From positions 1,856,748 to 1,918,741 of the forward strand of contig NZ_NAPS01000001.1 in assembly GCF_004323185.1 (NCBI RefSeq): a stretch of DNA of 61,994 nucleotides, in the 5' to 3' direction. A model generated the notes under the pieces. The model had not been told where the DNA came from. It made no database searches and worked only from the letters and a program-made list of their open reading frames with translations. Position 1 is the stretch's first letter. Each line of letters begins with the position of its first letter. The DNA is from Westiellopsis prolifica IICB1 (GTDB lineage Bacteria > Cyanobacteriota > Cyanobacteriia > Cyanobacteriales > Nostocaceae). The translations under genes were made by a program, and so were the position numbers. This document shows, piece after piece, positions 4,791 to 37,103 of the stretch.

Positions 4791-5354
4791 ATTGCGCCTA
4801 TTAACTGGATTTTTTTGAGGTGAAGGTTTGAAGGCGATCGCCATCATTAAAAACATCATCATCATGACTGCTATGATTATTGGCAAAGGAACAAAATTGT
4901 TATTTTGAGATTGAGATTGTGAACTAGAATTTGTACTTAATTTATTACTAGAAGCTAAACTAGAACTAGAACTAGAATCTGAGCTTGATTTGTTACTAGA
5001 ATTAGAATTAGAGCTAGAACTAGAACTAGAACTAGAACTAGATTTAATATTAGAAGATGAACTCAAGTTAGAATTAGGTTCAACTAGTCGAACATCACCA
5101 AGATCTTTTTGTTTTGGTGATAGTTTTATTGAAGAGTTATAATTTTTGTAGCCATTGGCTTGAATAGATAATTGTGATTGCAAAGAATCGCTGTTATTAA
5201 AGTTAATTGTTAATCGATATATTCCTTCTAAATCTGTGTAGGTAATCACTGAATTACCTGGATATGTTAGTAAAATTTTAGCCCTACTAATTGGAGCTTG
5301 TTTTTTTTGGTCAATAACGCGACCAAGAAAAGTTATTGTTTGATGCTTGGACAT
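4746..5354 (-). CDS. Ser-rich membrane-anchored protein with carboxypeptidase-regulatory-like domain
   Basis: No enzyme family was recognised. Residues 1-90 resemble a carboxypeptidase regulatory-like beta sandwich (FLGRVIDQKKQAPISRAKI, then a YxDLEGIYRL pattern). Residues 95-150 are almost only Ser and Asn. A hydrophobic segment near 152-172 (PLPIIIAVMMMMFLMMAIAF) is a probable single membrane anchor at the C-terminus. The tail is built from a dispersed repeat. The gene lies between hglE and hglD, so it may tether or organise the glycolipid synthase at a membrane; that role is inferred from position only. The Ser run is encoded by AGT/TCT-like triplets that repeat in the DNA (5000-5050). Confidence 0.72.
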   Translation of the reverse strand: MSKHQTITFLGRVIDQKKQAPISRAKILLTYPGNSVITYTDLEGIYRLTINFNNSDSLQSQLSIQANGYKNYNSSIKLSPKQKDLGDVRLVEPNSNLSSSSNIKSSSSSSSSSSSNSNSSNKSSSDSSSSSSLASSNKLSTNSSSQSQSQNNNFVPLPIIIAVMMMMFLMMAIAFKPSPQKNPVNRRNTLSVLVPTLRFDTE

Positions 5355-5501
5355 ATCTTCAAGAGTGAGGTGGGAAGGAGGACGAGGAGGACTAGGAGGA
5401 CTAGGGGGAATAGGAGGACAAGGAGGTATTTCTTCTCCCTTGTCTCCCCCCTCTCCCTTGTCTTCCCTGTCTCCCCCCTTTCCTGGTCTTTCTATCTTTT
5501 G
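5355..5501. repeat. GGAGGACTA / TCTCCCTTG 9-bp tandem repeats between hglE and the Ser-rich gene
   Basis: Successive GGAGGACTA-like units (5372-5425) are followed by their C-rich complement type (5430-5490). The repeat fills the intergenic gap just after the hglE stop codon and could form a hairpin in the transcript. Confidence 0.6.
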
Positions 5502-8500
5502 TTATCTGTCGAGTACGCTAACTAAAGTTACTCTTCCCTGGGAACCATAGGCTACTTCGGTAAGATAACGATTGGGGTCGTGAAGTTCAGCAAAAATGTG
5601 TTGTGCTGATGTTTCGGCGCTAAGATCAGGACTAAGGTCTATTGCCCGACAATATACTTTTGGCCATTCCCAAATCATGGTTTTGGTTAATCCAAATAAA
5701 CCTGCACCAATCGCCCCAAAGTTAACTTTGTGTTCAACTCCAAAAGCCCCGTCTAGACGTGCTACGGTACAGAAACAACTGCGTCCGTAATTGGCTGCTG
5801 CGTTGAGGGATTTTTTCAGGTGTTTCGCCATGAAGAAGACTTGCTTAATAATCGCTTTTTCGGCTGGGAAATAAGCAATCTTACTGTTGTTGCTAGCCTG
5901 GAAGACGGGGTGAATGTGAATAAATGCGCCAACGTTACCGTAATGAGTGGCGATCGCTGCTAGTTGTTGTTGTAGATGTTCTTCAGTAGAATCTTGTAGG
6001 GTAACGCGATTCACACCTGCTGGTAAGGGGGATTTTTCGGGAACTAGGGACGGAGGTAAGTTTAAGACTACTACTTTCCATCCCCGTTGACTCAATAACT
6101 CAGCAACTTTGGTAGTGGTGAGGGAACCATCGTCGGTGATTAAGGCGATGTGTCCCTCTGGTATGGGGGATTCCCAAAAGTCGGGGGGTGGGAGAATTTG
6201 CAGCTTGGCTGGACGACGTTGGATGTTGGGTACTAACTCATCTGGCTGGTTAACAGATTCATGTTGCTGCTTTTTTTTTTCAGCCCCAGCTAGTTTCTGG
6301 AGGTACTCAACTATTTGACCGATGGTGCGTAGTTCTGCTAGTTCTTCCACATTACTCGGTTTCGGTAGGTCAGGGTATTTTTCTTGTAACGCTCCCATAA
6401 TTTCTACCCGTTTAATCGAGTCAATCCCCAAGTCTGCTTCCATATCCATGTCGAGTTCTAGCATCTCGACTGGATAACCTGTTTTTTCGCTAGTAATAGC
6501 TAACAGGGTTTCAGATAGGTTACTTAAGTCAATTTCTGCTGCGGGAGTGGCTGTTTCGGTAACGGTGATGATTGGTTCGGCGGCGACTGCAACACTTGCG
6601 TGAACAACGGTAGAGTCGTTGCTGAATTCAGGTACAGCTTCTGAAGACGCGGTGACGGAGAGACGCGGTGACGCGGAGAAATTATCAAAAATATTCTCCG
6701 TGTCCCCCATGTCTCCCATGTCCCCCATGTCCCCCATGTCTCCCTTGTCCTCTACCAACGCGGGGGTAAAAACTAACGATTGTAGATACTGGACGATTTG
6801 ACCGATGGTACGTAGTTCCGCCAGTTCTTCTACATTACTTGGCTTGGGTAAGTCGGGGTATTTTTCTTGCAATGCACCCATGATTTCTACTCGTTTGATC
6901 GAGTCAATTCCCAAGTCTGCTTCCATATCCATGTCGAGTTCTAACATTTCGATGGGATAACCAGTTTTTTCACTGGTGATGGCTAGCAGAGTTTGATCTA
7001 ACTCAGATAGATCAATGGTTGGTGCTGATGCTACTAATGTTGCTGGTGGTAGTGGCTGTTGAGTAATTACTGGTTGCGGTGGTGCGCTGATGGTCGGTGT
7101 GTTGGGAGTGGGAGTGTGGGAGGTAGGGGGAGTGGGGGAAGTCGGGGGAGTGTGGGGTGTGTGGGAAGTGTAGGAAGTGGGGGAAGTGTTTTCTTGTGTG
7201 ACTTCTTTGAGTGGTTTGACTTCTGTTACTTGTGTGACTTCTTTAATTTCTTTGACTGGTTTGATTTCTTCTGGTGTGGCTTTTCTCCCATTTGTAGAAA
7301 TTACTGGTTGAGTGGTTCCACCGTCGGTGATGAGTTGGGAGTATTCTTGCTGAACGAGTTGGAAGAAGTTTTTGGTGTATTCTACCTGATCTTTGAGATA
7401 TTGTTGATGAATGCGTAGGGTTTCACCTTGTTGGGCGTGAAACTGCATCATGCTACGGTCTAAGCTTTCGATGATGCTTGGTTTCAGTTTGGCTGTATCT
7501 GGTGAATTGTTACCGTTAGCAAGCAGGGAATTCTGCTGCTGCATCAGTTGGAAAAATGTTTTAGCATATTCCATCTGATGGTTCAGGTAGTGGGAATGAA
7601 CTTGTAAATTCTCGCTTTGATTTTGTTGAAACTGTGTCAGGACGTATTCTAAGCTTTCTAAAATTCTTTGGTAATTTACAAGTTTATCTGGGATTTCTGG
7701 TTGCATTGGGGATCGGGGAACGGGGATCGGGGATTGGGAGGTGGGGAGAGTGGGGGGAGTGTGGGGAGTAATGTAGAGACGCGATTCATCGCGTCTGGAA
7801 GTGGGGGAGGTAGGGATTAGGGGTTGGGAATTACTGTTACCGTTGGTTTTTACCATTTCCCCTTTAACCATCTCAACAGTGTTTTCTACTAACTGGGGTT
7901 GTTTGCTGTGTCCGTTAGTACCGTTAGTACCGTTAGTTTGTGGCAATGCGATCGCACTTGTGGAAACAGAATTAGAATTATGCTGCAATTTTACTGTTTT
8001 CCCGTTCTGCAATGCTTGCTCAAATGCCATTTTCGTTTTGTCTGATACGTAGTTACTACCGCATAATTTGACGTTCAAACCTTTGTTTTTCGGTGGTTCG
8101 GCAATTACTGGCGGTAGTTGGTAGGGGTCGAGGTTTTTCAAAGACATACCCGCAACCCGCAACTGTACAGCGGCTTCGCGCACAGAACGATCACTGTTCT
8201 TTTGGGCGCTGGGGTTAAGTGCGATCGCCATATGAGGGCGATCGCCTAAGATGTCTTTGATTAAGTTGGTGAGAATGTTTCTCGGCCCAAATTCTACGAA
8301 GCAATAACCCCCAGCTGCGTAGATATTTTCGATTTCCTGCTTGAACAGTACGGAGTTGGAAAGGTGGGTTTCGAGGGTTTTTTGAATGACTGCTGGTTCT
8401 TTGGGATATTCTTTTCCTGTGACGTTGGTGTAAACAGGGATTTGAGGAATTTGGAAGTTGACGTTTTTAATGGCGATCGCAAAGGATTTTTGAGCAAAAG

Positions 8501-11003
8501 CAATTAGCGGTGTATGGAAGGCTGCGGATACTGGTAAAGAAACAGCCGCATATCCTTGTTTGTGTAATGCATCCTTTACTTGGGTAATAGCGTTGGTGGG
8601 GCCTGCTAATACGACTTGGCGGGGTGAATTGAAGTTAGCGATCGCCACCTGGGGATAATTCCTCAGTACGGCTTCTACTTTACTCAGGTCTTCTTTTACC
8701 GCCAGCATTGCTCCTGTATCATAATTCGGATCTTGGGGTGCTGCCATTGCTTGTCCCCGTGCTTTCACGAGTAAGCAGTAATCTGCATCACTCAACACTC
8801 CCGCCGCCCACAATGCTGTCAGTTCACCAAAACTGTGTCCAGCGACGAAATCTGCCTTAAATCCAGATTGTTGCAGAATTTTATACATCCCTGCGCTTAA
8901 CATCCCAATTGCAGGTTGAGCATATTGTGTCCGTTGTAATGCTGCAATTTGGGCATTCTTTTCTGTCTCTTCAAATACGGGATGGGGAAAAACTATTTCG
9001 GATAGTGGCTGCAAGTTATCTTTGCATAACAAGCTATCCATGTAGCCATACAGATTCCGCATTTCCGGGAAATTCATCACTAATTCCCGACCCATATTCA
9101 AGTATTGCGAACCCTGACCGGAAAATAAAGCTACTACTTTTCCGGCTAATTCCATACCAGAAGCGCGGTAGTAAACACCTTGGGGATGTTCCCAGGATAT
9201 TGCAGTTGCTTTGTTTTTCAACAAGTCAATGCTAATTTGTAGTAACTTGCAAGCCTCAGCACTATTCTCAGCGACAAAACCAACCCTAGCAGCACCCTGG
9301 GGAATTTCTTTGGTTTTGCAAGCTTCGACCAACTCTAGATAATGTTTATTACCTGCTTCAGACTGCAATTGAGCTAAAGTTTCCTGACAACTGCTTAATA
9401 ACTCTGCTGGAGTTTGAGCAAACAGGACTACTTCACTAGGCGCAGTGTGCAAGCGGTAAGCTTGGTTGTGTTCGCCTTCGTATTCTTCCAGAACCACATG
9501 ATAGTTTGTACCACCAAAGCCAAAGGAACTGACACCCGCCCGTCTTGGTGCTTCCCCTTCTGACCGAATCCAGGGTCTTGTTTCTGTATTTAAATAGAAA
9601 GGTGAATTCTTGATTTGAAGTTTGGGATTGGGTTCAGTAACGTTAATTGTCGCTGGTAGGATTTTGTGGTGGAGTGCCAAAGCAGTTTTGATTAAACTCG
9701 CCGCACCAGCTGCCGCTTTTGTATGTCCAATCTGGGATTTGACTGTACCAAGGGCGATATGATGTCTTTTGGAACTATTTTCTCCGAAAAATTCTCGTAA
9801 AGATCCGAATTCAGTTGGATCACCCGCCATAGTCCCTGTACCGTGGGCTTCAATCAGGGAAACAGTTTCGGGTGTAAAGCCTGCATCTTCGTAGGCGCGG
9901 CGTAATGCTTGTACCTGTCCCGCTTGGCGAGGGGCGTAAATACTTTTATAGCGTCCATCGCTGGATGTACCGATACCTTTGATGACTGCATAGATTTTAT
10001 CGTTGTCTCGTACCGCATCTTCTAAGCGTTTGAGAACAACCATACCGATACCTTCACCCAACATCATGCCATCAGACTGGGTATCGAAGGGTCTCACGAC
10101 GCCGCTAGGAGTCACCGCCGGAGTTTTGCTAAAACTGATATAAGCTGTGATCGAGTTGTCAGTGTCAACGCCGCCAGTCAGCATCATGTCACAACGATGC
10201 TCGACTAACTCGCTAATTGCCATTTTCAGAGCGGCGAAGGAACTTGCACAAGCAGCGTCAACTGTACAATTTATCCCGCCTAAATTCAAACGGTTAGCAA
10301 TACGTCCAGAGATGACGTTCGCTAACATTCCGGGGAAAGCGTTTTCATCCCACTTGACATAAGCGCTTTTGATTTTCTCAATCACTTTTTGGGTATCTTC
10401 ATCAGATAAGCCGCTACTTTTGAGGGCTTTTTCCCAAATTGGATATTGCAGACGCGCAGCCAAGGGAATCCCTAATTTGAGAGCTGCTGATCCTAAGATG
10501 ACGCCAACAGTCTCGCGACTAAATTCCCGGTTTTCGCTGTAACCAGCATCTTCCATCGCTTGTTTGGCAATTAGCAAGCTCAACAGTTGGGAGACATCTG
10601 TTACTTCTAAAATATTTGGCGGAATCCCAAAATCCATGGGGTTAAAATCAACATGGGGGAGAAATCCGCCTCTTTTGCAATAGGTTTTGTCTTCTGGTGT
10701 CCTGGGGTTTGGATCGTAGTAATCTTCCACACTCCAATGGGTGGGTGGAATGTCGGTTATACAGTCGAGTTTATTAACAATATTTTGCCAATATTCCCGC
10801 AAGTTTTTCGCTTGGGGAAATAAGGAAGCCATACCAATAATAGCAATAGGATTATGCTGCAATTTTCTGTTTATTTTTTCGATTCCCATAGACTTATCCG
10901 ACATCCTTTTTTTGACCTCAAGAAACCTCACCACTGCCTTTTCACAATTGTTTATCTGTTCTTCCAATTGCGCTAAGGCAATCTCAATTGAATGAGCAGA
11001 CAT
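5502..11003 (-). CDS. hglE: HglE-like polyketide/PUFA-type synthase (KS-AT-ACP-ACP-partial KR)
   Basis: This 1833-residue multidomain synthase makes the very long acyl chain of heterocyst glycolipids. The ketosynthase (about 51-505) has active Cys252 in DAACASS, His387 in HGTGT and His427 in QIGHTKAAAG. The acyltransferase (about 620-960) has GQGSQ and Ser724 in GHSFGE. A long low-complexity linker (about 1010-1290) is partly built from DNA repeats. Two acyl carrier domains, each with LGIDSIKRVE, place their phosphopantetheine serines near residues 1368 and 1528. The last 230 residues look like the structural half of a ketoreductase. The layout resembles PfaA. It heads the minus-strand cluster hglE, Ser-rich gene, hglD, hglC. 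Upstream of the ATG there is no strong RBS. The AT-rich gap at 11004-11272 probably carries the promoter. Confidence 0.88.
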   Translation of the reverse strand: MSAHSIEIALAQLEEQINNCEKAVVRFLEVKKRMSDKSMGIEKINRKLQHNPIAIIGMASLFPQAKNLREYWQNIVNKLDCITDIPPTHWSVEDYYDPNPRTPEDKTYCKRGGFLPHVDFNPMDFGIPPNILEVTDVSQLLSLLIAKQAMEDAGYSENREFSRETVGVILGSAALKLGIPLAARLQYPIWEKALKSSGLSDEDTQKVIEKIKSAYVKWDENAFPGMLANVISGRIANRLNLGGINCTVDAACASSFAALKMAISELVEHRCDMMLTGGVDTDNSITAYISFSKTPAVTPSGVVRPFDTQSDGMMLGEGIGMVVLKRLEDAVRDNDKIYAVIKGIGTSSDGRYKSIYAPRQAGQVQALRRAYEDAGFTPETVSLIEAHGTGTMAGDPTEFGSLREFFGENSSKRHHIALGTVKSQIGHTKAAAGAASLIKTALALHHKILPATINVTEPNPKLQIKNSPFYLNTETRPWIRSEGEAPRRAGVSSFGFGGTNYHVVLEEYEGEHNQAYRLHTAPSEVVLFAQTPAELLSSCQETLAQLQSEAGNKHYLELVEACKTKEIPQGAARVGFVAENSAEACKLLQISIDLLKNKATAISWEHPQGVYYRASGMELAGKVVALFSGQGSQYLNMGRELVMNFPEMRNLYGYMDSLLCKDNLQPLSEIVFPHPVFEETEKNAQIAALQRTQYAQPAIGMLSAGMYKILQQSGFKADFVAGHSFGELTALWAAGVLSDADYCLLVKARGQAMAAPQDPNYDTGAMLAVKEDLSKVEAVLRNYPQVAIANFNSPRQVVLAGPTNAITQVKDALHKQGYAAVSLPVSAAFHTPLIAFAQKSFAIAIKNVNFQIPQIPVYTNVTGKEYPKEPAVIQKTLETHLSNSVLFKQEIENIYAAGGYCFVEFGPRNILTNLIKDILGDRPHMAIALNPSAQKNSDRSVREAAVQLRVAGMSLKNLDPYQLPPVIAEPPKNKGLNVKLCGSNYVSDKTKMAFEQALQNGKTVKLQHNSNSVSTSAIALPQTNGTNGTNGHSKQPQLVENTVEMVKGEMVKTNGNSNSQPLIPTSPTSRRDESRLYITPHTPPTLPTSQSPIPVPRSPMQPEIPDKLVNYQRILESLEYVLTQFQQNQSENLQVHSHYLNHQMEYAKTFFQLMQQQNSLLANGNNSPDTAKLKPSIIESLDRSMMQFHAQQGETLRIHQQYLKDQVEYTKNFFQLVQQEYSQLITDGGTTQPVISTNGRKATPEEIKPVKEIKEVTQVTEVKPLKEVTQENTSPTSYTSHTPHTPPTSPTPPTSHTPTPNTPTISAPPQPVITQQPLPPATLVASAPTIDLSELDQTLLAITSEKTGYPIEMLELDMDMEADLGIDSIKRVEIMGALQEKYPDLPKPSNVEELAELRTIGQIVQYLQSLVFTPALVEDKGDMGDMGDMGDMGDTENIFDNFSASPRLSVTASSEAVPEFSNDSTVVHASVAVAAEPIITVTETATPAAEIDLSNLSETLLAITSEKTGYPVEMLELDMDMEADLGIDSIKRVEIMGALQEKYPDLPKPSNVEELAELRTIGQIVEYLQKLAGAEKKKQQHESVNQPDELVPNIQRRPAKLQILPPPDFWESPIPEGHIALITDDGSLTTTKVAELLSQRGWKVVVLNLPPSLVPEKSPLPAGVNRVTLQDSTEEHLQQQLAAIATHYGNVGAFIHIHPVFQASNNSKIAYFPAEKAIIKQVFFMAKHLKKSLNAAANYGRSCFCTVARLDGAFGVEHKVNFGAIGAGLFGLTKTMIWEWPKVYCRAIDLSPDLSAETSAQHIFAELHDPNRYLTEVAYGSQGRVTLVSVLDR
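6695..6752 (-). repeat. 9-bp repeat between the two ACP domains of hglE
   Basis: Repeated TCCCCCATG/TCTCCCATG units encode four to five GDM tripeptides in a row between ACP1 and ACP2. The same unit type occurs in the hglC linker. Confidence 0.8.
7084..7190 (-). repeat. GGGGGAGTG tandem repeats encoding a Thr/Pro linker in hglE
   Basis: Repeats of GTGGGGGAGT type are read in frame as a His/Thr/Pro/Ser-rich linker upstream of ACP1. Confidence 0.75.
7706..7800 (-). repeat. GGGGATCGG repeats plus GACGCGATTCATCGCGTC palindrome inside hglE
   Basis: A GGGGATCGG cluster (7706-7740) and a perfect 20-bp palindrome core (7777-7796) lie inside the coding frame. The palindrome reads in frame as SRRDESRLYI. 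The same palindrome family occurs in intergenic DNA at 12242, 16976, 45117, 48060 and elsewhere. Confidence 0.8.
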
Positions 11004-26211: not shown

Positions 26212-29200
26212 TTACTTTGACCATCTTTCCGCCCACTCCTTACCTAATACACGCAATAATGCTTTGAGTCCCAGAATGTATGGGGGTTCAAAGCGAATAT
26301 TCTCTGATTTACCTCTGATTTTCAGTAAGACATTTGTCAATTCACGGTTTGTATCCCGCCATAATTTTTCGTTGTCTTGAAGGTCTAGACTTCTTCTATA
26401 TCCTTGTAGAGGTTTTATTCCCTCGACTTCTAAATCTCTCAATGCTACATGGAAATCATAGAGAAACTTAGGTAGTTGTACTAATTTAGGAATGGCAAAT
26501 TTTTCAATTTCTTCTTCATCTTCTTCCAATTGCAAACGGGAATTCCAATCAATAGTTCTACCATTAATTTCACATTGTTCACCTGCAATTAATGGATCTT
26601 TGGTTCTTCTTTTCAAGTCTTGAAGTTTTGTATCATGCAGTACTAAACCACAAGCTACTTCATCTTTGGGATTTTGGCTTAAGCGTGTCGGAACTTCAAC
26701 GTCTTCAAAACCAGAGGCTTTACTTAGCATCTGGCTAAATAATAAGTTTATTTCGGAGTTACGGTCAAATTGTGCCGTCTCCGAAAGCCAATTTAAAAAT
26801 TTACCACCATTTCCAGCAATATAAACAGGGGTAATCTCTTGGCGTTGATACTTACCTTCTTGGTGCAGTGTATGGAGAAGAATTCCTACATAGTAATACA
26901 ATCCTGCCATACCAATTGCTGTTAGTTGTATCAGTCCTTGAAAATCTGGTTCATCTGCAACAAATGCTTTTCTATTATTCAGCCAATTATCTCCTTCTAA
27001 GCGTAACCACATGTCTAATTTCAGATTGAAATCTGCTCCTTTCAGTCCTTTGACTTGAACAGCTTCGATTCCAAATCTACGCTCTAAAAACTTAGGGTTT
27101 AGCTCTAGGAATTGTGAAAATAAATCTCGTCCGGCTAAAAAAACTGAACATTGATGAACAAGAGTTTCTTCTTCCCAAATTGATATATCAGAAGTATTAC
27201 CACCCACATCAATACAAGTAGTGTTAACTAAATCATGTCCTTCATGGTCGGCGAAATATTGGGCTACTGCTAAACTTTCCAAACGAAAGTCGTCTAAATT
27301 ATGTATTTCTGGAGAAGTGTGCTTAACTCCTGTTTTTTCTTCTAGTTCTTTGGTGATATCTTTCCAAGTTTTGGCATATCTAGCTCTGTCAACACGAGAA
27401 AAAGACGAGCGGTAAGACAAAGACCATTTAATTTCTGCAACACCATTCTTGGCTGCGATCGCAGTGATGTGCAAAGCTAAATGTTTGAGGAAGAGTTGAT
27501 TATAAGCTAATTTTTGATTGTCTTCCCACTTTAAATCCGTTTTAATCCAGTCTTCTTGGGGTTTAAACTTGTAGCTATTTGGAACATAAATCCGACCGTC
27601 TAAAATTGGTCTCATAACATCGTTATGAGTAGCAAAACCTCCTCTTGTGGTAAGTACGTTTCGCAAAGGTAAGGGCTTGTTTAAAGGAATAAAGTCTTCT
27701 GGAATGAAGTATTCATACAGCAGAGGTAATCGAGTTTCTTGGTTAAACTCTGCTACTTTAAGATGTAAATTTTCTAATCTCAATGGTTCTACAATACCAT
27801 CTCTGTTGACATAAACATTAGTGGAAGAAGTGCCAAAATCTACACCTATTTCCCATAAAAGTCTCATAGGAACTTCTAATGGAGATCGCAATATAATTAA
27901 ACCTAAAATTTGTCTATCTTGCCATTGACGACATTCAATATGAGATGGGAATTCCTCTAAGTAAGCCATTTGATAAGAACCACGACCATCTTTAAAAATG
28001 TGTGGCTGTTTGGCTTTGGGAAAATTTACTTGAAAAGTTTCTTCTGCATGTTCACCATCGTAGTAGAATGCATAATAAGATTTCCAATTTTTAGTATGGA
28101 AGTTTGGCCATATTTCTAAAACGGGTACTTCTGGTAAAGCATTCTCTCCTTTGAGCAGATAATCTTTTTGGATGCGATAATTTTGGAATGAATGATCATA
28201 ATTCATCCCAGACAAGGGTAAATCTAAAATCACCCGTACTAGCTGTACTTCATCTGTATCAATTGGTTGCAGTGTCAATCGAGAAATTAAATCTTCTGGT
28301 GTGAGATAATCAAGTAGAATTGGATTAAGCGGAATCAAGGGAGTAATGCGATCGCCCTCAAAGGTCAATGGTACAATTTCCTTGGGTAATAACGCACCAG
28401 GTAAAGCTTCTTCTTGATTAATAAATTTAAACTCCGGCAAGAATAAATCTTTAGGTTCAATCCATTTTACATCTGTCCAAATAATTCTTTTTTGCCGTAA
28501 ATCTTCTATATTTAAAGCCGCTAAAGTTTTCCCGCCATGAATCCAAATATCTTGAGGTGAGACATTCCAAACTCTAGCTATTTCTGGATCTATGATTAAT
28601 AAATCAGGATATTGCCATTTATTTAAACTGGGAATCAACCGGATATTGGGAAATCTTACCGGTGCTTTTATAGGAAAATTCAAAGCATGGAGTACTCCTC
28701 GATTGAGGGGAACTCCAAAAAATTGCGGTTCTTCAGTTAAAATAAATTGTTGATTAGTATCTGCGTTTAAATCAATACGAAATTCATCTATTAACCCACC
28801 AATCATATTAATAGCGTGCCTTTTACCATTATGCTGAGTTATCTCTTTCCGCAGATTTTCTAACCAACGCCACAATAGAGATTTTTCAGTAGAATTTATA
28901 TAATTAATTGGAGAGTCTAGCTGACCTTTTGACCACCATTGTAATCCTATCCATTCTCCTTCTTCTGAAGGAGAAACTAAGGTACTAGGTGAGGTCATTC
29001 CTACTGGTTTATTTTGCCATAAAAATACATAAATATCTTCCCAAGGATGTTTATTTTCTAATGTGTAAAGGGTGTTCTCATCACTAGGTAAAACTTCATG
29101 TAAACAACGAGCAAATTCTTCTTCATATCTTAATTGACCCAATTCTATCAATTGTGCTGTGAGTGGAAAACCGCGTACTTCTGCAAGTGCTATTGCTGCT

Positions 29201-30318
29201 AACATCCCCCGCCATTGCTTAATCATTTGTTCACGGAGCGGATGATAATAATCATGTAGAGCCATCTCCATTGATAAGGGACGCGCCCACATATTTGGTA
29301 CGAAGCTAACACTTTTTACTTCTCTTGGAGCTTGATAATTTAGACTGTTAGCTATAGATGTAAATGCTGTGTTTTCATATGCTTCCCATTTCCCGCTCTC
29401 GTAAGGAACTTGAAGGTCATAATCACGCTTTAATGAGGGTAGTAGTGAAACAGTAAACGCCGTTTTTTGCTTTGTTATGGGTGTGTCAGGAGCAACTGTA
29501 TTTTCGAGAATCTCAGATGCTTTAACAGATGAAACTTCAATTGGATTTTCGGGAATCTCAGGTGCTTCAATAGATGGAACTTCAATCGGATTTTCGAGAA
29601 TCTCAGGTGCTTTAATAGATGAAAGTTCAATTGGAATTGACAACTTTATTTCAGCAACTTCAACTTGATTTTCATGTATTGATAACTGGCGAAATTGTTC
29701 TTCTGCTTCCTCTATATTTCCACGAGTAAAACTCTGCATTCCACGAGCATATTTAATTAAAGGCGGAGAAAATTCTGCCAATGCTTCGGGAAGAGTTTCT
29801 ATTAATGATGCAAGCTGAAAAAGTTCATTCCAGTTTTTTTGTTTTAACCTTGATTCGATTGCTTCTGCTAGTTCCTGACTAACCTGATGAGGTTTTGTAT
29901 AAGTCAATGCTGTCCAATATTGTGCTTGTGCTAAATCTCTTGTTCTTGAGTCTTCATCCTCAAGTTGGTGTTTTACGTATTTAGTCAGAAAATCTGCTAA
30001 TTCTTCTAACCGTTGTTGACCAAAACGTTTATCTTCTTGCAGCTCTGTTAACAATAAATTACGGACAGTAACATTCATTTCATAAAGCTCATAACCCACT
30101 TCACGACACAAACGTGACAGAAGTATACGAGCAACTGCTGTCCAAGGAGCTTGGGGAAGGAAGCGAAGCCAAATTTGATAGAGTAAATCTGGTGTCAGTA
30201 CTATTGGAAATGCAGCGTGACAAGCTAAGTCAAAATGTGCGCGGTCGAATTTTTGGGCAAATCCGACAACTCGCTCAACGGCAAATTCTAACTTTGTCGT
30301 ATCAGCTTTGTTTTTCAT
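26212..30318 (-). CDS. Giant protein with C-terminal Hsp70/actin-like ATPase domain, partner of vWA-MoxR
   Basis: This protein of about 1368 residues starts at ATG30318, just after the vWA stop; ATG30336 is possible. Residues 1-240 (numbered from 30354) are helical and TPR-like. Residues about 240-300 hold three imperfect copies of an IEVxSIxAPEIxEN unit, a flexible linker. The middle part (300-820) was not recognised. An Hsp70/actin-type nucleotide-binding fold follows: phosphate-1 GVDFGTSSTNVYV near 836, phosphate-2 CIDVGGNTSDIS near 1048 and an adenosine-type YIAGNGGKF near 1178. The C-terminal 100 residues are acidic, then helical. The gene is translationally close to the vWA gene and belongs to the MoxR-vWA group, so MoxR/vWA may remodel or load it. 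A link to ternary vWA-MoxR-associated conflict systems is inference. Confidence 0.78.
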   Translation of the reverse strand: MKNKADTTKLEFAVERVVGFAQKFDRAHFDLACHAAFPIVLTPDLLYQIWLRFLPQAPWTAVARILLSRLCREVGYELYEMNVTVRNLLLTELQEDKRFGQQRLEELADFLTKYVKHQLEDEDSRTRDLAQAQYWTALTYTKPHQVSQELAEAIESRLKQKNWNELFQLASLIETLPEALAEFSPPLIKYARGMQSFTRGNIEEAEEQFRQLSIHENQVEVAEIKLSIPIELSSIKAPEILENPIEVPSIEAPEIPENPIEVSSVKASEILENTVAPDTPITKQKTAFTVSLLPSLKRDYDLQVPYESGKWEAYENTAFTSIANSLNYQAPREVKSVSFVPNMWARPLSMEMALHDYYHPLREQMIKQWRGMLAAIALAEVRGFPLTAQLIELGQLRYEEEFARCLHEVLPSDENTLYTLENKHPWEDIYVFLWQNKPVGMTSPSTLVSPSEEGEWIGLQWWSKGQLDSPINYINSTEKSLLWRWLENLRKEITQHNGKRHAINMIGGLIDEFRIDLNADTNQQFILTEEPQFFGVPLNRGVLHALNFPIKAPVRFPNIRLIPSLNKWQYPDLLIIDPEIARVWNVSPQDIWIHGGKTLAALNIEDLRQKRIIWTDVKWIEPKDLFLPEFKFINQEEALPGALLPKEIVPLTFEGDRITPLIPLNPILLDYLTPEDLISRLTLQPIDTDEVQLVRVILDLPLSGMNYDHSFQNYRIQKDYLLKGENALPEVPVLEIWPNFHTKNWKSYYAFYYDGEHAEETFQVNFPKAKQPHIFKDGRGSYQMAYLEEFPSHIECRQWQDRQILGLIILRSPLEVPMRLLWEIGVDFGTSSTNVYVNRDGIVEPLRLENLHLKVAEFNQETRLPLLYEYFIPEDFIPLNKPLPLRNVLTTRGGFATHNDVMRPILDGRIYVPNSYKFKPQEDWIKTDLKWEDNQKLAYNQLFLKHLALHITAIAAKNGVAEIKWSLSYRSSFSRVDRARYAKTWKDITKELEEKTGVKHTSPEIHNLDDFRLESLAVAQYFADHEGHDLVNTTCIDVGGNTSDISIWEEETLVHQCSVFLAGRDLFSQFLELNPKFLERRFGIEAVQVKGLKGADFNLKLDMWLRLEGDNWLNNRKAFVADEPDFQGLIQLTAIGMAGLYYYVGILLHTLHQEGKYQRQEITPVYIAGNGGKFLNWLSETAQFDRNSEINLLFSQMLSKASGFEDVEVPTRLSQNPKDEVACGLVLHDTKLQDLKRRTKDPLIAGEQCEINGRTIDWNSRLQLEEDEEEIEKFAIPKLVQLPKFLYDFHVALRDLEVEGIKPLQGYRRSLDLQDNEKLWRDTNRELTNVLLKIRGKSENIRFEPPYILGLKALLRVLGKEWAERWSK

Positions 30319-30320
30319 CG

Positions 30321-31505
30321 CTACGACAACATCCATTGATAGGGGCGTTCCCAATAGACATACCGTCCGCGCAAGGTATTAATAGCTGCATTGAGTCCTT
30401 GGCGACTCATCTCAAACATCGGCACTAACAAAGCAATCTCGCCAGCAGTAGTATACTGCCAACTTTCGTTTGGCATAGGATTAAGCCATGCAAAATAACG
30501 CACAAACTGCTGGAGTTGCTTGATAAAATTTTGGCTCTCCTTTACTCGTTCTGCATTATAGTTACCACGTGCAGCTCCTGCATCGCTGACAATCAATACA
30601 GCTGCTTTTTGATCAATTGATTGTAAAACTTCGTTTAATAATTGAGCTTTGAGGCGAGTGGGATCAGTATAAATATATTTTTCAGGATAATTGTGAAAAT
30701 AGTAAACACGGGTTCGAGTTATGTTTCCACCCTGTTGAGCTTTTTCGATTAATTGACGGGATAAATGATGAAAAGGTGTCATTGAACCACCTTGGTCAAC
30801 GAGTAGAACTAGTTCACTACAGTTAACATAGCGTGGTTTGAATATTGGTTCAATGACAATACCTTGCTGAGAAATTTTTTCTACTGTAGCTGCTACATCT
30901 AATTCTTCTAATTTACCTTTACGTATAGGACGACGCAGGATACGCCAACTCTGCTTGATTTGTCTACCTGTAACTGGTAAATATTGATCGGTTGAGTTTG
31001 GATAGGGGTAGATAGTAATTAATGATTCGCGCTTGTTATGGCGAATAGCTTGAATTACTTGCTCTGGTTCTTGGGAAATTTCTACATTTTCTTCTTCAGA
31101 TTCAGTTGAGGAATTGGTGGTTGAATTGAAAGTATCTTCTGCTGGTGGTGGAGCAGGGGTATCAACTGGTTGTTCAGGCTTGGTCGAGGAAATTTCAGAT
31201 AAAGAAGAATTGGATGACTCTTGAGTTGGTGATGGTTCTACTGTAGGAGATGTTTCAACTTCAATATCAACCTGTGCTAGAACCTGATCTAGAAGTCGAT
31301 GTAGCAAACGCGCTTCTTCTTTAGATTTTGTCCATAGTATACAGCAAAGTTGTTCTAGAGATTGGCGATCGCGAATTCCAAATCCACCTTGCACAGCTTC
31401 CATCGCCAAAAGATAATCATCAATTCCTAAAGGAAGACCAAAATCACGTAAATTATAAAAGAGATTTAATAAAGCATTTAATAAAGATATTTCGGTAGGA
31501 TTCAT
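30321..31505 (-). CDS. vWA-domain protein of a MoxR-vWA pair
   Basis: This 394-residue protein has a helical N-terminus (about 1-90) and a Pro/Ser/Glu/Thr linker (about 95-150). The VWA_CoxE-like domain (about 215-380) has a MIDAS motif LLVDQGGSMTPF (a DxGxS variant), the second metal loop around LIVSDAGAARG and FAWLNPMP. MoxR ATPases act with such vWA proteins as metal-dependent assembly or chaperone pairs. The ATG overlaps the MoxR stop by four bases (ATGA), so translation is coupled, and the ATPase-like giant protein follows at once. Confidence 0.83.
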   Translation of the reverse strand: MNPTEISLLNALLNLFYNLRDFGLPLGIDDYLLAMEAVQGGFGIRDRQSLEQLCCILWTKSKEEARLLHRLLDQVLAQVDIEVETSPTVEPSPTQESSNSSLSEISSTKPEQPVDTPAPPPAEDTFNSTTNSSTESEEENVEISQEPEQVIQAIRHNKRESLITIYPYPNSTDQYLPVTGRQIKQSWRILRRPIRKGKLEELDVAATVEKISQQGIVIEPIFKPRYVNCSELVLLVDQGGSMTPFHHLSRQLIEKAQQGGNITRTRVYYFHNYPEKYIYTDPTRLKAQLLNEVLQSIDQKAAVLIVSDAGAARGNYNAERVKESQNFIKQLQQFVRYFAWLNPMPNESWQYTTAGEIALLVPMFEMSRQGLNAAINTLRGRYVYWERPYQWMLS

Positions 31506-32419
31506 GTTTTATCCTCCCGTAAAAATAAGTAATCCCGGTAATCTTTCCAATATTTAAGCAATGCTCCAGCAAAAGGAAGCTTTCCTTGAAGTTTTGCTAA
31601 GGCTTGGTCTTCTGGATATTGACGCAGCAGTGTAAACCAATCAATCAACTCACTGGTACTAACTTTTTTGCCAGTTCTACCGCTATCTTTTTCCATTTGT
31701 TCTCGTAGCTGTGTAAAGCGAATAACGGCTGCTTCAATAATGTCTTGTGAAGAATCAGGAAAATGGAGGTTAATAATATTTTTTAAATCAGACTGAGAGG
31801 GAAAGTCAATATAATGGAATAGGCAACGACGCAAAAAAGCATCAGGTAAATCTTTTTCATCATTACTAGTAATAAATATAATTGGTGGATGCTTTGCCTG
31901 AATAACAGTTTGTCTCATTTCGTGAATAATAAACCGCTTTTCATCAAGTTCTTGTAATAAGTCATTAGGAAAATCAAGGTCTGCTTTGTCAATTTCATCT
32001 ATCAGTACAATAGTCCGTTTCTGGTTGATAAAAGCACGACCTAAAGGCCCTAGTGTAATGTAATTTCTCACATCATCAACCTTAGAACGTCCTTGTTCAT
32101 CAACACGTGTTAGCTGTGCATCATGGAGACGAGCGACAGCATCGTAAGAGTAAAATCCATCTTTTGCTTTAGTTGTAGATTTTATATACCAAGGCTCGTA
32201 GGGTAAGCGTAGTTCGTGAGCTACAGCCTCCGCTAAACGAGTTTTACCACAACCAGGTTCTCCCTTCAGCAATAAAGGACGTTTCTGTAAAAAAATCGTA
32301 AGGTTTACTACCTCAACTAATTGCGGTGAAGGAATATAAGGTGCAAGTCCAGCAGCACGTTCTTCTTGAGAAGGTTGCTGTGTACCTGTATAAATAAGAG
32401 GTATTACTGAATCAACCAT
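31502..32419 (-). CDS. MoxR-type AAA+ ATPase
   Basis: This 305-residue AAA+ protein of the MoxR group has Walker A GEPGCGKTRLAEA (near residue 53), Walker B TIVLIDEIDKADLDFP, sensor 1 FITSNDEKDLPDAF and an arginine-finger region FLRRC, with a helical lid at the end. The ATG at 32419 is preferred; TTG32440 is only an in-frame extension. It overlaps the end of the broken protease-iSTAND gene by 16 bases and the vWA gene by 4. MoxR proteins drive metal insertion or assembly of partners bound by the vWA protein; here the natural partner is the giant protein downstream. Confidence 0.87.
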   Translation of the reverse strand: MVDSVIPLIYTGTQQPSQEERAAGLAPYIPSPQLVEVVNLTIFLQKRPLLLKGEPGCGKTRLAEAVAHELRLPYEPWYIKSTTKAKDGFYSYDAVARLHDAQLTRVDEQGRSKVDDVRNYITLGPLGRAFINQKRTIVLIDEIDKADLDFPNDLLQELDEKRFIIHEMRQTVIQAKHPPIIFITSNDEKDLPDAFLRRCLFHYIDFPSQSDLKNIINLHFPDSSQDIIEAAVIRFTQLREQMEKDSGRTGKKVSTSELIDWFTLLRQYPEDQALAKLQGKLPFAGALLKYWKDYRDYLFLREDKT

Positions 32420-33461
32420 TGTGCTAATCTTCCCTCCCAACTAGAACCGCAGTGAAGACAAATTTTTTGATAAACAAGTTCTGGTACACCTGATTTTGAC
32501 TCTTTCAACAAATTTTCTATAGATAAATTCTCAAGGTCTATTTCTGAATCTGTGTTGCTTAACCATTTGGCAAGTTTTTTATATGAAAATCGGTTAGCTT
32601 GAGTTAAACATAGAGGAATTTTCGGATATTCTGCTTCAGAATGATGATAGACTAAAGGAATACCGGAATCACAAACTTTTGCCTGATTGTCAAGCCAGAA
32701 CATGACTAAGTATTTCGTTTGACAATTTACTTTTTCTATAATTGGTTGCCAGAAATATTCAATTAACTCAGATAAAAAACCTATATAAGTACGATGAACT
32801 TCATCAAAAATAAAAATTAAGTGCTGAGTTTGCAAACATTCCGCAATTTTATCAAAAATTTATTCTTCGCAGATGTATACTAGCTGAGTTGATTCAAAAA
32901 AGTGTTTGGCTATCTCATTCCATAAATCTGAAATTTTACCCATACCTCCTAATTTAATTTTAATCTTTCTGCCATTACGCAATTGTCTTAATTGAGACAA
33001 TCGTGTAACTAGAATTTCTTGACCATATTTTTCCTGACCATGAATTAAAAAAGCTGCAACTCTGTTGGGATGAAAATCTAGAGCTTCCACAAATTCTTGT
33101 TCTTGCTCTTCAAAATCAATAGCAAGTATTGATTTAAACAAATGCTGATCACATTGATTTATTGGTATATATTCTTTTTTTTGTTGAATTTCAAATTCTT
33201 TTATTTTACTGTATAAAATATCTATCTCCTTCCATAGTAGTTCTTCTGTCGCCTCGTAACGTAATCTAAGTTTTCAACATCATTTTCACCGTTGTGTAGT
33301 GCTACTACCTGCCAATTAGTAACATTCAATACAGCAGCACCAGAAGTTCCTTCTTCTGTTGGAGCGCTATGCAAAATTTGATTTGGATTAGATGCAAACC
33401 TGATAAATCTACCTGCGGAACGCTGTTTTTGCTGTCCTTTAGGATGTTGAATTACGTATAA
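32404..33461 (-). pseudogene. Trypsin-like protease - iSTAND gene, broken
   Basis: Reading the minus strand gives the C-terminal half of a trypsin-like protease: LYVIQHPKGQQK, then EEGTSGAAVLNVTNWQVVA with the catalytic Ser. A one-base frameshift near 33255 moves the frame. An iSTAND-like NTPase segment then follows: FHPNRVAAFLIHGQEKYGQ (P-loop-like position), and later HLIFIFDEV. Two interruptions are visible beside that shift: TAG at 33462-33464, before LYVIQHPKG, where the His and Asp part of the protease is missing, and in-frame TAA at 32860-32862 (ICEE*IFDKIAECLQ). The gene lies between the tubulin-like gene and MoxR. Protease-iSTAND proteins are known from predicted NTP-dependent conflict systems. 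Confidence 0.78.
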
Positions 33462-33625
33462 CTATTTCAGAGGGTTTAATGTGATGATATGAATAAATAT
33501 TTGTCGAGTAAGTGTAAACCCTCCGTACTGTGTTGAATAGGATATCAAAAAATCAAAGTAAAATCTAGAAAACTTACGTATTGATACTTAATTATACATA
33601 AATACTGCTGATTCATAAGCCATAT
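33462..33625. other. Gap carrying the deletion breakpoint of the protease gene
   Basis: No gene was seen. The DNA between the protease remnant and the tubulin-like gene is A/T rich. The missing N-terminal half of the protease is not here, so that part has been lost. Confidence 0.5.
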
Positions 33626-35122
33626 CTAAAGCCTACAGAGTATATATAGAGCTTTTGCTAATCCAGCAGCACCCTGGTTTGGTTCCTTGAGGTCTCTTGG
33701 TTCAGAAATCAATTTGACGTGTAATTCCTGTATCGTGTCTCGTGTTTGCTTACTTCTATCCCGACTGTCATCAATTACAAGAGTGGGAAATAGCTCTAAT
33801 TTAGGTTGCAAAAAAGAACGAGAAGCAAAAAGTTGAATGTCATCACCATCACCTTGATGAATAGCATGTAACCAACCTAAATATGTTTGACACCAGTTAG
33901 TCACAACATTGATTGTGCCTTGTTCATTTGCATTACCCAACTCAGGTAAATCTTTACCTCTTCCCCCGAACAAAGTTTGAGGGCGGAAAAATCTGCTAAA
34001 CCAAGCAATATTTTTTTGCGCCCAGGGAATTCCTTGGGTTTGAGCAGTTTTTAATTCGGGGAGAGTATTTGCTAGCCAAGCATAAGCAAAACGTGTGGCG
34101 TTTACTAATTCCTGCTGAACCACACTTTTATCTGGAAGATCATTCCATGTGATTTTATCTAAACTTTGACGAGCAATTAATGTTACAGGAAGTTGTTCGT
34201 TACAAGGTTTTAAGAAAAACTGTCTGGCTGCTAATGCTGCGTAAAGTTCGATAAAATGAGGGTCGTTACGTTGGGTGTTTTTACCAATACTAAAATCAAC
34301 TTTTTTGGCGTTCTGATTCCCTAATAAATATACGGTATTAAAGATTTCTCGTGCTTGAGTAACGTAGTAGCGCAACGCTGCTTCTGTATTTAATAAAAAC
34401 AAATCGGATTGGGCGTAAACACCATCGGCATCTCCTCCTACAGGCGGCGAAAAGCAAAAATACGGTAACATGAATAAACAACCAATCTTAACGCGATCGC
34501 GTACATTCAGCCGCCACAATTTGTTGTTAAGCAAGCTACCAATGGTAGGTAAGCCAGAAGCACCTGTTCCGCCAAAGATCGAACCGCAAAGCAAAATCTT
34601 GGTTTCGCTTCCCTGTCCTACATCTCCCTGAATTTGACTGATGAGCGATCGCCATGTTTCATTATCTAAAGCATCCAAATCGACTTGGCTCATAATTGCT
34701 GAACCAATCGCCGGTCGTCCGCGAAACCCAACATCTAAATCAACAGTTCTTTCTTCTTTGGTGTAAAGAACATCAAATAAATTGCCTAATTCTTGATAAT
34801 CTTGTTTCAGGTTATTGTAATTAAAAAAAGACCCAAGATTTTTATTAACGTTAGCTTTCGCAAATGGCGACCATGAAGAAAAAGACTCAATTGGAGTTTT
34901 CATCCAAGAACATTGTTCTTTTTCTCCAGCGATAATTTGGTAGCATATTTGGTAAAGGTTGAGAGTGCTTTGAGTGCGTTCCAAATTACCATTAGATTCA
35001 TCTGGGTCTATAAATAAAATTTTGATGGAATTGTTGCTAAAAAGTCCAATACTAGCTAACTGAATTACAGCTTCTACACACTTAGCACCTGTCCCACCAA
35101 TGCTAATTAAGTAAAGTGACAT
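33626..35122 (-). CDS. Tubulin/FtsZ-like GTPase
   Basis: This 498-residue protein is a distant relative of FtsZ/tubulin. The first strand-loop is LYLISIGGTGAKCVEA (residues 3-18). The tubulin signature region is ILLCGSIFGGTGASGLPTIG (near residues 176-195), with GGTGASG in place of the usual GGTGxG. The end is less conserved. Such proteins bind GTP and may polymerise. It begins three bases after the stop of a membrane protein gene, so the two probably work together at a membrane. FtsZ-like families in predicted membrane-remodelling systems with vWA proteins have been described (Makarova and Koonin), which fits this neighbourhood. The exact family needs a profile search. Confidence 0.8.
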   Translation of the reverse strand: MSLYLISIGGTGAKCVEAVIQLASIGLFSNNSIKILFIDPDESNGNLERTQSTLNLYQICYQIIAGEKEQCSWMKTPIESFSSWSPFAKANVNKNLGSFFNYNNLKQDYQELGNLFDVLYTKEERTVDLDVGFRGRPAIGSAIMSQVDLDALDNETWRSLISQIQGDVGQGSETKILLCGSIFGGTGASGLPTIGSLLNNKLWRLNVRDRVKIGCLFMLPYFCFSPPVGGDADGVYAQSDLFLLNTEAALRYYVTQAREIFNTVYLLGNQNAKKVDFSIGKNTQRNDPHFIELYAALAARQFFLKPCNEQLPVTLIARQSLDKITWNDLPDKSVVQQELVNATRFAYAWLANTLPELKTAQTQGIPWAQKNIAWFSRFFRPQTLFGGRGKDLPELGNANEQGTINVVTNWCQTYLGWLHAIHQGDGDDIQLFASRSFLQPKLELFPTLVIDDSRDRSKQTRDTIQELHVKLISEPRDLKEPNQGAAGLAKALYILCRL

Positions 35123-35125
35123 TGT

Positions 35126-35611
35126 TTAATCTTCAAATAAAGGAAGACGACGTAGTGTAAATGCTCCCGGAGGAATGTACATTAAAGCTTTGGGAGAACT
35201 TGTAGCCGTAGTAAACCAATAAAGGAACGCAACATCCAATATAAATAAAGTAGTCAGAGAAAAAAGAGCTTCTGAAGTATAGCTGTAAAAGAATAAAGCA
35301 ATCCCAATACTTAACACTGGTAAAAACAAAATTATACACCAAATCAGTAGCCAATTCTGCCGATCATGCGCTGTTCTGGGTTGCGCTCTGGCTGCTAAAA
35401 CATACCATAATAATGTTGAGAAAATACTAACACTGAGAACAACCGTTGCTCCTGGCGTGTAATAATTAACAATCCAAACTTCAAGGTTAGGTACTTTGCT
35501 CAGAACAAAGAAAAAAATTTGACTGCGATAAAATATCGGCTGTACCCAAAGCATCACAAGCGAGCCGAGCAAACTAAAAGCTATGATGCGAATCCATTCA
35601 CTCGCCTTCAC
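35126..35611 (-). CDS. Membrane protein with four transmembrane segments, partner of tubulin-like GTPase
   Basis: This 161-residue protein has hydrophobic segments near 8-25, 50-70, 88-108 and 113-133. The tail ends in PPGAFTLRRLPLFED. No enzyme motif was seen. The GTG at 35611 follows a strong AGGAGG box, here with only four bases between. It is the first gene of the minus-strand run and lies directly before the tubulin-like gene, so it may anchor the polymer. An insertion sequence ends 51 bases upstream of the start. Confidence 0.72.
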   Translation of the reverse strand: MKASEWIRIIAFSLLGSLVMLWVQPIFYRSQIFFFVLSKVPNLEVWIVNYYTPGATVVLSVSIFSTLLWYVLAARAQPRTAHDRQNWLLIWCIILFLPVLSIGIALFFYSYTSEALFSLTTLFILDVAFLYWFTTATSSPKALMYIPPGAFTLRRLPLFED

Positions 35612-35657: not shown

Positions 35658-37103
35658 AATTTCAGTAGATCACAAACTTTTCCCGAAAGGATGATCGCTG
35701 GTGAGATGCAGCACACTTTCAGGGAAAATACATAATAAAAAGTTATAGTTGACTACGAGCTAAAAAATGAAATGATTTAGAGTTGTGAATCAAAATGTGG
35801 TGAAAAAAATTGACTGTTTTACGAGATAATCCATCTCTTACAGACTCAGAGACGCTTGACGAAGTTCTTAATTGTTTAGTATAAAATATATCGATTGATA
35901 CCCAAGGTGCCTGTGACGAAAAAACATTATTTGAGATTTTAATTAAAGCAGCTAGTAGTGGAGATAGTATTGAGAACACATCGAAAATATTAGATAATAT
36001 TCCCTCTGGGAATGATGTTAGATATCATTTGGACAAAATCAATAATTTTGAAGAATTAGAATTACAAATTAATCAGGCTCTGTTAAGTCGTATTCCTGCA
36101 AGAATCAAAAATGGAAGTCATTCTATTGCTATAGATTTAAACCTAATTCCTTATTATGGAAAGCCTAGTCCTGAAGAATTACCTTATATATATAGAAGCC
36201 AAGCAAAGTCTGGTACTTGTTCATTTTATGCATATGCAACTTTATATGTAATTACCAAAAACAAGCGCATCACTTTGGCAGTAAGAGGCGTACGCTGCTT
36301 TGATACTAATGTAGCAATTATTACATATTTACTCGCCGAACTAGAACCTCTAAAAATTCAAATCAAGAAATTATTGCTTGATAGAGTCTTTTTCAGCCTT
36401 TCGGTTATTCGTTGGTTGCAAGCTCTAAATATACCTTTTATTATGCCAGCAATACGCAGGGGTAAGCAAAAAGGCATCAAACAATTTCTTAAAGGTAAAA
36501 AAAGTTATAAAACCCATTATACGATGACCAAGGGTAAAGATGATTCAGTAACTTTTAACTTATGGATAGTCTGTAAATATAGAAAAGGTAAGCGAGGTAA
36601 ACATGGAGTTGAGTATTTCGCTTATGTTATTTATCAAGTAAAAACTAGTTTATCTTACATACATCAACACTATCGAAAAAGATTTGGAATTGAAAGCAGT
36701 TATCGGTTAAAAAATTTATGTCGAATTAGAACCACTAATAAAAAACCAGCGCTTCGATTATTATTCGTTGGCATTTCTTTCCTTTTAGTTAATATTTGGG
36801 TTTATCTTCTCTGGTTAAAAATTAGCCTGAATAGAAGAGGTGGAAGGCTCGTTTATCATCAATTATTTGGTCTGAAGCAGATGTTAGCATTCTTGCGTCA
36901 AGCTGTTGAACGAAAATATCAAGTTATTCAAGCTGTTTATCTTCCGTCTAGTTAATATGCTGAAAACAAAACTGTCAACCATTTATAAATGTAACTTATT
37001 AATTACTGCACTGTTTTTATAAATATGACAACAAAAAGTATCCTATCTTACAAAAATCCGCAGCGATCGCCCTTTCGGGAAAAGTTTGTGATCTACTGAA
37101 TTT
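35658..37103 (+). mobile_element. ISH3-like insertion sequence with 5-bp target duplication
   Basis: Terminal inverted repeats match over about 27 bases perfectly from the outer end (left from 35663: CAGTAGATCACAAACTTTTC; right end at 37098 reads the complement). They continue imperfectly to about 37 bases. The direct repeat AATTT flanks both sides (35658-35662 and 37099-37103). The element itself is 1436 bp, 35663-37098. The transposase lies inside on the plus strand. It is inserted 51 bases upstream of the minus-strand membrane-tubulin operon. Confidence 0.9.
35810..36955 (+). pseudogene. Transposase (DDE, ISH3/IS4-like), interrupted by in-frame TAA
   Basis: The frame reads from about 35810 (LTVLRDNPSLTDSETLDEV) to 36955 with one TAA at 35882-35884. 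After the stop it continues without a break through SIAIDLNLIPYYG, probably the first catalytic Asp. Downstream segments are LLLDRVFFSLSVIRWL (second Asp) and YRKRFGIESSYR, holding the Glu of a Y-R-E-like motif. The 308-residue part from a TTG at 36029 could be made alone but would lack about 70 N-terminal residues. Whether the element can still move is doubtful. Confidence 0.82.

Follow-up and report, generated by a model that had tools for sequence, protein, structure and literature searches.

Recurrent capture of a cyanobacterial tubulin-Hsp70 operon by iSTAND-type MoxR-vWA cassettes

In the genome of Westiellopsis prolifica IICB1 (7.3 Mb, here G000), an operon encoding a small membrane protein, a tubulin-like predicted GTPase and an Hsp70/actin-like ATPase contains, between the last two of these genes, a cassette of the type known from iSTAND ternary conflict systems, and the adapter domain of this cassette is fused in frame to the Hsp70-like protein. 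The locus lies in a stretch of 61,994 nucleotides (assembly GCF_004323185.1, contig NZ_NAPS01000001.1, positions 1,856,748 to 1,918,741, forward strand), which as a whole is called the window below, and its relatives at the tubulin/Hsp70 locus are cyanobacteria. The captured operon is a recurrent new form of already known kinds of system. Sequence comparison suggests, with a probability of about 0.6, that the tubulin-Hsp70 operon has been placed under the control of the conflict cassette, and the tubulin-Hsp70 unit would most likely be an output under MoxR-vWA control in conflict signalling.

On the minus strand, the genes follow one another in the order 161-residue membrane protein, 498-residue tubulin-like protein, trypsin-iSTAND remnants, MoxR, CoxE-like vWA protein and a giant protein, all of them where an earlier note, made from the DNA letters, had placed them. 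Two couplings described in that note are likewise real: the MoxR and vWA genes overlap by ATGA (31502-31505), and 3 bases separate the membrane gene, which ends at 35126, from the tubulin gene, which starts at 35122. The giant protein counts about 1,368 residues from the ATG at 30318, and 1,380 from an upstream TTG. The features are as follows.

35126-35611, minus strand: small membrane protein of 161 residues, first gene of the tubulin operon; four hydropathy regions, weak Pfam match
33626-35122, minus strand: tubulin/FtsZ-like predicted GTPase of 498 residues, intact (AlphaFold, Foldseek); GGTGAKC near the start, GGTGASG signature
29395-33641, minus strand: inserted cassette of about 4.25 kb, delimited by blastn against the relative L058, which has 129 bases there
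33225-33461, minus strand: remnant of a trypsin-like peptidase domain, broken (Trypsin_2, 28.6 bits, cut-off 27.6)
32407-33273, minus strand: remnant of the iSTAND gene, in one frame with one in-frame TAA at 32860-32862
31502-32440, minus strand: MoxR-type AAA+ ATPase (AAA_5, 53.6 bits); Walker A motif GEPGCGKT
30321-31505, minus strand: CoxE-like vWA protein (VWA_CoxE, 44.5 bits, cut-off 26.4); MIDAS-like (metal ion-dependent adhesion site) motif DQGGS
29605-30318, minus strand: adapter domain, residues ~13-250 of the giant protein; domain also present at 31 other loci that have MoxR and/or vWA
26212-29454, minus strand: Hsp70/actin-like ATPase part, residues ~301-1380 of the giant protein (AlphaFold, Foldseek); motifs DFGTS, DVGGNTSD and YIAGNGG
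36029-36955, plus strand: transposase gene (DDE_Tnp_1, 34.9 bits), at the position where relatives carry a divergent lipoprotein-type vWA gene

The insertion is delimited by the closest relative found (L058). By blastn, window position 33642 corresponds to L058 position 11527 and window position 29394 to L058 position 11397, with 4,247 bases in the window against 129 in the relative. Phormidium OSCR (L116) shows the same arrangement, with the cassette between the tubulin and Hsp70 genes and an adapter-Hsp70 fusion, and a contig of equal length in genome G207 (L068) carries the same genes. Its close sister P. willei (L113) has an empty site, with 64 bases between tubulin and Hsp70 against 4,987; the two loci are 86-94% identical over the fetched stretch, which has three breaks, the two others being shorter than the insertion. 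Phormidium OSCR and P. willei constitute a natural plus/minus pair for the cassette. A third arrangement is found in a Calothrix metagenome-assembled genome (MAG; L144), in which the cassette precedes the tubulin gene, and a single open frame of 447 residues joins its adapter to the beginning of tubulin. The window and L116 keep the same LLP-LK start of the Hsp70 part, which was delimited in the giant protein by comparison with unfused relatives, and their linkers are unrelated. By eye, the window's linker (giant protein residues ~240-292, ~29479-29637) contains repeats of about 18 residues.

The host operon, module A, is by its gene content a membrane protein/tubulin-like/Hsp70-actin-like unit almost confined to cyanobacteria in the scan made here. 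Of 386 genomes sampled from the phylum, 25, among them the window's own, encode relatives of the tubulin protein. A non-exhaustive scan for the Hsp70-like part, with two short peptide patterns derived from the cyanobacterial alignment, gave 77 loci in a collection of 84,980 species, all cyanobacterial by their record titles except L174 (Nitrospirae) and L154 (titled Euryarchaeota). The latter, from a MAG, carries an operon of cyanobacterial type that groups with cyanobacterial loci, and is probably a misassigned contig. The tubulin gene is present in 66 of the 77 loci and adjoins the Hsp70-like gene in 63, lying within 500 bases upstream of it or overlapping it by less than 200; a homologue of the small membrane protein is found in 57, zinc-ribbon or peptidoglycan-binding-like proteins stand downstream in 48, and several of the loci that lack one of these genes lie on short contigs. 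A second type of vWA gene, distinct from the CoxE-like one linked to MoxR, occurs in 54 loci, often with a lipoprotein-like start (a loose lipobox-like pattern in 43/54, a DxSxS site near the start in 30/54). The recurrence on which the earlier note had staked its proposal is seen for the tubulin/Hsp70 pair; the full set with MoxR-vWA and an adapter-Hsp70 fusion occurs only in the window and L116, and its adapter-tubulin variant in one locus, L144.

The inserted unit, module B, is by its domains a published iSTAND ternary-type cassette, composed of trypsin-like and iSTAND (inactive STAND) remnants, MoxR, a CoxE-like vWA protein and an adapter of about 245 residues. Such systems correspond to vWA-MoxR subsystem 2 of Kaur et al., 2020 (PMC7159879), where MoxR and vWA proteins are predicted to act together as chaperones in conflict systems and iSTAND proteins carry trypsin-like or caspase-like domains. 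The window's iSTAND gene survives in two pieces (32863-33273, 37.0 bits; 32407-32859, 29.9 bits), both above the family cut-off of 24; a family search that reads through the stop gives 75.6 bits, the sole iSTAND match in the genome, and the Trypsin_2 piece sits just upstream in another frame. The protease-iSTAND gene is thus broken, as had been noticed. The MoxR protein is 65% and 69% identical to those of the cassettes L086 and L088. A MIDAS had been ascribed to the vWA protein; a degenerate site resembling it is present, and it reads DQGGS instead of following the DxSxS rule (PMC2875224).

The adapter was found in 31 loci besides the window, in the same polypeptide as the vWA domain in 5, as a separate downstream gene on the same strand in 25, and downstream on the opposite strand in L175. 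In those 5 loci vWA, adapter and effector form one polypeptide, which argues that the adapter links vWA to the effector. The giant protein had been described as ending in an Hsp70/actin-like ATPase; this fold stands, and the protein as a whole is an adapter (residues ~13-250) fused to an Hsp70-like part (~300-1380). The vWA-linked position is thus occupied by a variable effector, Hsp70 in the window and other domains elsewhere. In 21 adapter loci scanned for effectors, FGS was found in 11, TPR, TPR-CHAT, bDLD1, DUF1257, KAP, FHA, pentapeptide, VanY and GUN4 once each, and no recognised domain in 1; L116 was scanned separately, L144 carries tubulin, and L177, L183, L187-L191 and L193 lay outside these scans.

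Whether the captures share an origin was addressed with two trees. In the cassette tree, built from MoxR, vWA and adapter (32/32 rows), the window, L116 and L144 stand apart, and their neighbours carry different effectors: TPR, CHAT and bDLD1 in the case of the window, DUF1257 in that of L144, and FGS, VanY, FHA, pentapeptide and KAP in that of L116. Approximately unbiased (AU) tests reject the groupings window+L116 (p 5e-5), window+L144 (3e-85), L116+L144 (2e-53) and all three together (1e-67). The operon tree, a quick tree of tubulin and Hsp70 with 65 of 79 rows, left out loci without exactly one tubulin of more than 400 residues and one Hsp70 part of 900-1400 residues, and kept L144 as joined pieces; parsimony on it gives three cassette gains, each beside loci without the cassette. 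Because of these two trees, the comparisons indicate three independent captures, on either partner of the tubulin/Hsp70 pair. A single ancestral capture, later shuffled by recombination, was considered and is unlikely, since each captured locus lies among cassette-free loci, the three cassettes do not group within the cassette family, and L144 has another fused partner.

The same evidence bears on the proposal of the earlier note that the proteins form a machine that remodels a membrane, if all six are taken as one ancestral complex. Operons of FtsZ-like 1 with vWA proteins have indeed been predicted to remodel membranes (Makarova and Koonin, 2010; PMC2875224), and membrane and lipoprotein-type genes belong to the operon studied here. 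Among the 77 related loci, however, MoxR and the CoxE-like vWA occur only in L116 and L144, by separate insertions, the vWA beside MoxR is distinct from the operon's own, and near relatives have empty sites. The empty sites and both trees led to the rejection of a six-part ancestral machine, which is highly improbable, and point to two joined systems, a tubulin/Hsp70 operon and a separate iSTAND-MoxR-vWA cassette inserted between its genes.

Fold prediction supports both nucleoside triphosphatase (NTPase) assignments, tubulin and Hsp70/MreB, in agreement with what had been read from the sequence motifs. The tubulin-like protein gave an AlphaFold model with a pLDDT (predicted local distance difference test) of 87.6 (52 sequences), for which the best Foldseek match in the PDB has an E-value of 3.8e-5 and a probability of 1.00. 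Among 50 listed titles, 49 name FtsZ, CetZ, PhuZ, tubulin, microtubules or assemblies, and the remaining one is an oocyte cytoplasmic-lattice entry. The TM-scores are low, 0.21-0.28 over the query, which marks the protein as a divergent member of the family; its GTPase domain, and with it the predicted GTPase activity, is assigned by predicted fold. In Pfam, Tubulin_2 scores 20.5 bits on the window protein, below the cut-off of 27, and 33.2 bits on the relative L061, above it. The same genome holds a separate, full Tubulin_2 match of FtsZ-like 1 type (G000:C8:557638-558699, 355.2 bits) in a frame of 1092 residues. Residues 295-1380 of the giant protein were modelled with a pLDDT of 88.8 (56 sequences), and Foldseek pairs this model with Hsp70 ATPase domains and MreB (best E-value 3.5e-8, probability 1.00). 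Sequence-profile searches of the PDB were uninformative for the tubulin-like protein (sole match TssB, E 0.88) and weak for the Hsp70 part (MreB, E 0.009, behind the unrelated RPB5, E 0.005), and family scans placed the latter in no Hsp70 chaperone family, with only weak MreB/FtsA matches. The membrane protein had been called a 4-TM protein; its four hydropathy regions are present, and the transmembrane call rests on these hydropathy peaks.

Several known systems resemble the captured operon, and the earlier note was right to link it to MoxR-vWA ternary conflict systems. Like the iSTAND ternary systems (PMC7159879), the window's cassette combines MoxR, a CoxE-type vWA protein, an iSTAND component, here broken and preceded by a trypsin-like piece in another frame, and a variable effector; the difference is that the effector here is a tubulin-Hsp70 operon that was already resident and was taken over where it stood, and Hsp70 is not among the effectors named for these systems in section 20 of that article. 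Its section 17 lists tubulin as a rare effector in VMAP-type systems. Also related are the predicted GAP1-N2 GTPase-centric conflict systems (section 29), which feature tubulin, HSP70 and vWA; unlike in the window, tubulin and HSP70 belong there to non-overlapping themes, together with GTPases and GAP1, and no Pfam match to GAP1 or a TRAFAC GTPase was obtained among the operon genes of the window or the scanned neighbours in L061. The FtsZ-like 1/Tubulin_2 operons, in which a divergent tubulin-like GTPase is associated with vWA and membrane genes (PMC2875224), are a fair relative of module A, as had been suggested. With 498 residues (488-534 in 25 homologues), however, the window's tubulin has, judged by its length, no room for the extended coiled-coil and helical C-terminal region of those proteins. 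In a passage of a 2023 study, Tubulin_2 proteins are set aside as divergent (PMC9871819). MadB and MadC of MADS defence (NCBIfam names) are a related MoxR-type ATPase and vWA protein, and the window's proteins score far below their curated cut-offs (81.9 of 475 bits and 15.2 of 600 bits). No description of the captured operon was found among titles and opening lines of abstracts in the open-licence literature of PubMed Central; the supplementary tables of PMC2875224 and PMC7159879 could hold such loci.

The operon has further links to conflict domains. In Planktothrix rubescens (L131:9101-12400, 48.9 bits) and Microcystis viridis (L149:8360-12223, 49.5 bits; cut-off 21.4) the Hsp70-like part carries a fused caspase-like (Peptidase_C14) domain; no tubulin gene was found at these two loci. 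A broader, more tentative proposal is that the operon itself might be a general output device of immunity, a membrane-located filament or gate that is driven by NTP and into which various triggers can be plugged. Different lineages would then have wired it either to the iSTAND-MoxR-vWA cassette, in three captures on either partner, or to caspase-like proteases, in two fusions, and sensor-like WD40 or AAA_35 genes beside it in a few other lineages could be part of the same picture. In that case bacteria would possess a cytoskeletal effector of cell death or containment. Genes for AAA_35 and WD40-repeat proteins lie upstream of tubulin on the same strand in L134 (3919-7794) and L136 (966-6709), and a WD40 gene does so in L117 (258-2969); they are possibly further plug-in sensors. 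The upstream same-strand genes scanned in L123, L135 and L151 have ordinary products (anthranilate synthase, chloride channel and FAD oxidoreductase), which shows that sensor-like neighbours are not the rule.

For the control of the operon by the cassette, the following mechanism can be proposed. A trigger would lead the trypsin-iSTAND sensor and the MoxR ATPase to change the state of the vWA-adapter unit; through the covalent link of the adapter with the Hsp70-like ATPase or with tubulin, this change would activate or inactivate an Hsp70/tubulin assembly next to the membrane, which would in turn limit the spread of the invader, by containment or cell death. We infer a stress- or phage-sensing role, as the earlier note had done, and the adapter fusions and the caspase-Hsp70 fusions of relatives strengthen this view. 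The recurrent captures suggest that a cytoskeleton-like pair can serve as the output arm of conflict signalling. Repeated, independent fusion of the adapter to tubulin and to its Hsp70-like partner argues strongly that both NTPases work together and that the output of the pair is useful to the conflict system, and the predictions of an FtsZ-like membrane machine and of a MoxR-vWA conflict system merge into one testable question. It could be objected that the cassette behaves as a mobile defence module inserting into operons, where the fusion merely gives it a shared promoter. The cassette does occur elsewhere with many effectors, in the window there is a transposase gene upstream and the iSTAND gene is disrupted, and the Hsp70 gene of the closest relative is also interrupted, by a 430-residue open frame (L058:7023-8315), for which reason the tubulin-Hsp70 operon seems prone to loss. 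Neutral hitch-hiking of this kind is nevertheless quite improbable, since three independent in-frame fusions to either of two neighbouring genes of one operon, together with caspase fusions to the same Hsp70-like protein, are hard to obtain without selection for the protein link.

Selection on tubulin and Hsp70 has been purifying, as estimated from the ratio of nonsynonymous to synonymous substitution rates (dN/dS): 0.123 for tubulin (window and L058), 0.144 for Hsp70 (window and L137), and, between L116 and L113, 0.152 for tubulin and 0.133 for Hsp70. Synonymous change is high in the window pairs (dS 1.1-1.4). Conserved columns, defined as those conserved in at least 97% of the unfused main-clade members (48 of 65 rows used), were then compared. 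At these, the window's tubulin departs in 0 of 79, L116 in 1 of 136 for Hsp70 (1/138 in its sister L113) and 2 of 79 for tubulin, and L144, whose sequence has broken frames, in 8 of 128 and 4 of 79; unfused rows depart at 0-4 Hsp70 columns. The Hsp70 changes in the window include F844S, G1180A and GGGT to GGNT, which the sister L058 lacks. All three fall in what we take to be ATP-site motifs of the superfamily.

Several observations weigh against control of the operon by the cassette, some of them in the window itself. In its Hsp70 part, 6 of 138 conserved columns are altered, compared with 0 of 124 in L058 and 1 of 138 in L137; its iSTAND gene is broken; and the operon's own type of vWA gene has left no remnant in the window and is missing from the whole genome according to a search that detects it in 3 of 3 control genomes. 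The dN/dS values mix the time before and after the insertion. Captures are also rare: in an order-wide sample of 388 genomes, where no more than two candidates per genome were scored and a hand count of the listed adapter matches gave at least 69, adapter-Hsp70 fusions number two, both already counted, and none of the matches listed shows a further adapter-tubulin fusion. The clearest overrun, in G525, was the one inspected and was rejected, its effector being, by eye, a P-loop and repeat protein. L144 comes from a MAG contig of low coverage whose frames are broken further along, and a chimaeric assembly is unlikely. Support for the exact neighbour of L116 in the cassette tree is weak (85/65), blastp detected iSTAND at 20 of the 31 adapter loci, so that a complete iSTAND cassette is not shown for each of them, and no PADLOC model matched the tubulin, Hsp70 or vWA proteins at E 0.01. 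On account of the broken iSTAND gene, the missing operon vWA and the changed Hsp70 columns, the window's copy may be either decaying or shifted to an altered-ATPase form; the wiring in this genome looks partly decayed or altered, with its sensor gene broken and its ATPase part changed at conserved sites.

The altered Hsp70 part would also fit a rather unlikely reading by analogy with plant immune receptors, some of which carry integrated decoys. The fused Hsp70 or tubulin would be bait, and invaders attacking the tubulin-Hsp70 complex would hit the fused copy and release a MoxR-vWA alarm. The modules acquired by these systems are typically inactive, according to Kaur et al. (PMC7159879), and the window's fused Hsp70 carries the three ATP-site changes absent from L058, its tubulin being unchanged at the conserved columns. 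The Hsp70 of L116, however, is nearly intact at these columns, and a profile search, which does detect a second paralogue in the control genome G078, shows no member of its family other than the fused copy in G000 or G207; this leaves no separate native copy to guard. Output under the control of the cassette remains the preferred reading. A second, shorter Hsp70-like paralogue of about 730 residues lies downstream in some operons (L115:16729-18927, L108:15810-18002). Elsewhere in the window, positions 2870-11003 hold polyketide synthase genes with KS, AT, ACP and KR domains, which are unrelated to the tubulin/Hsp70 finding.

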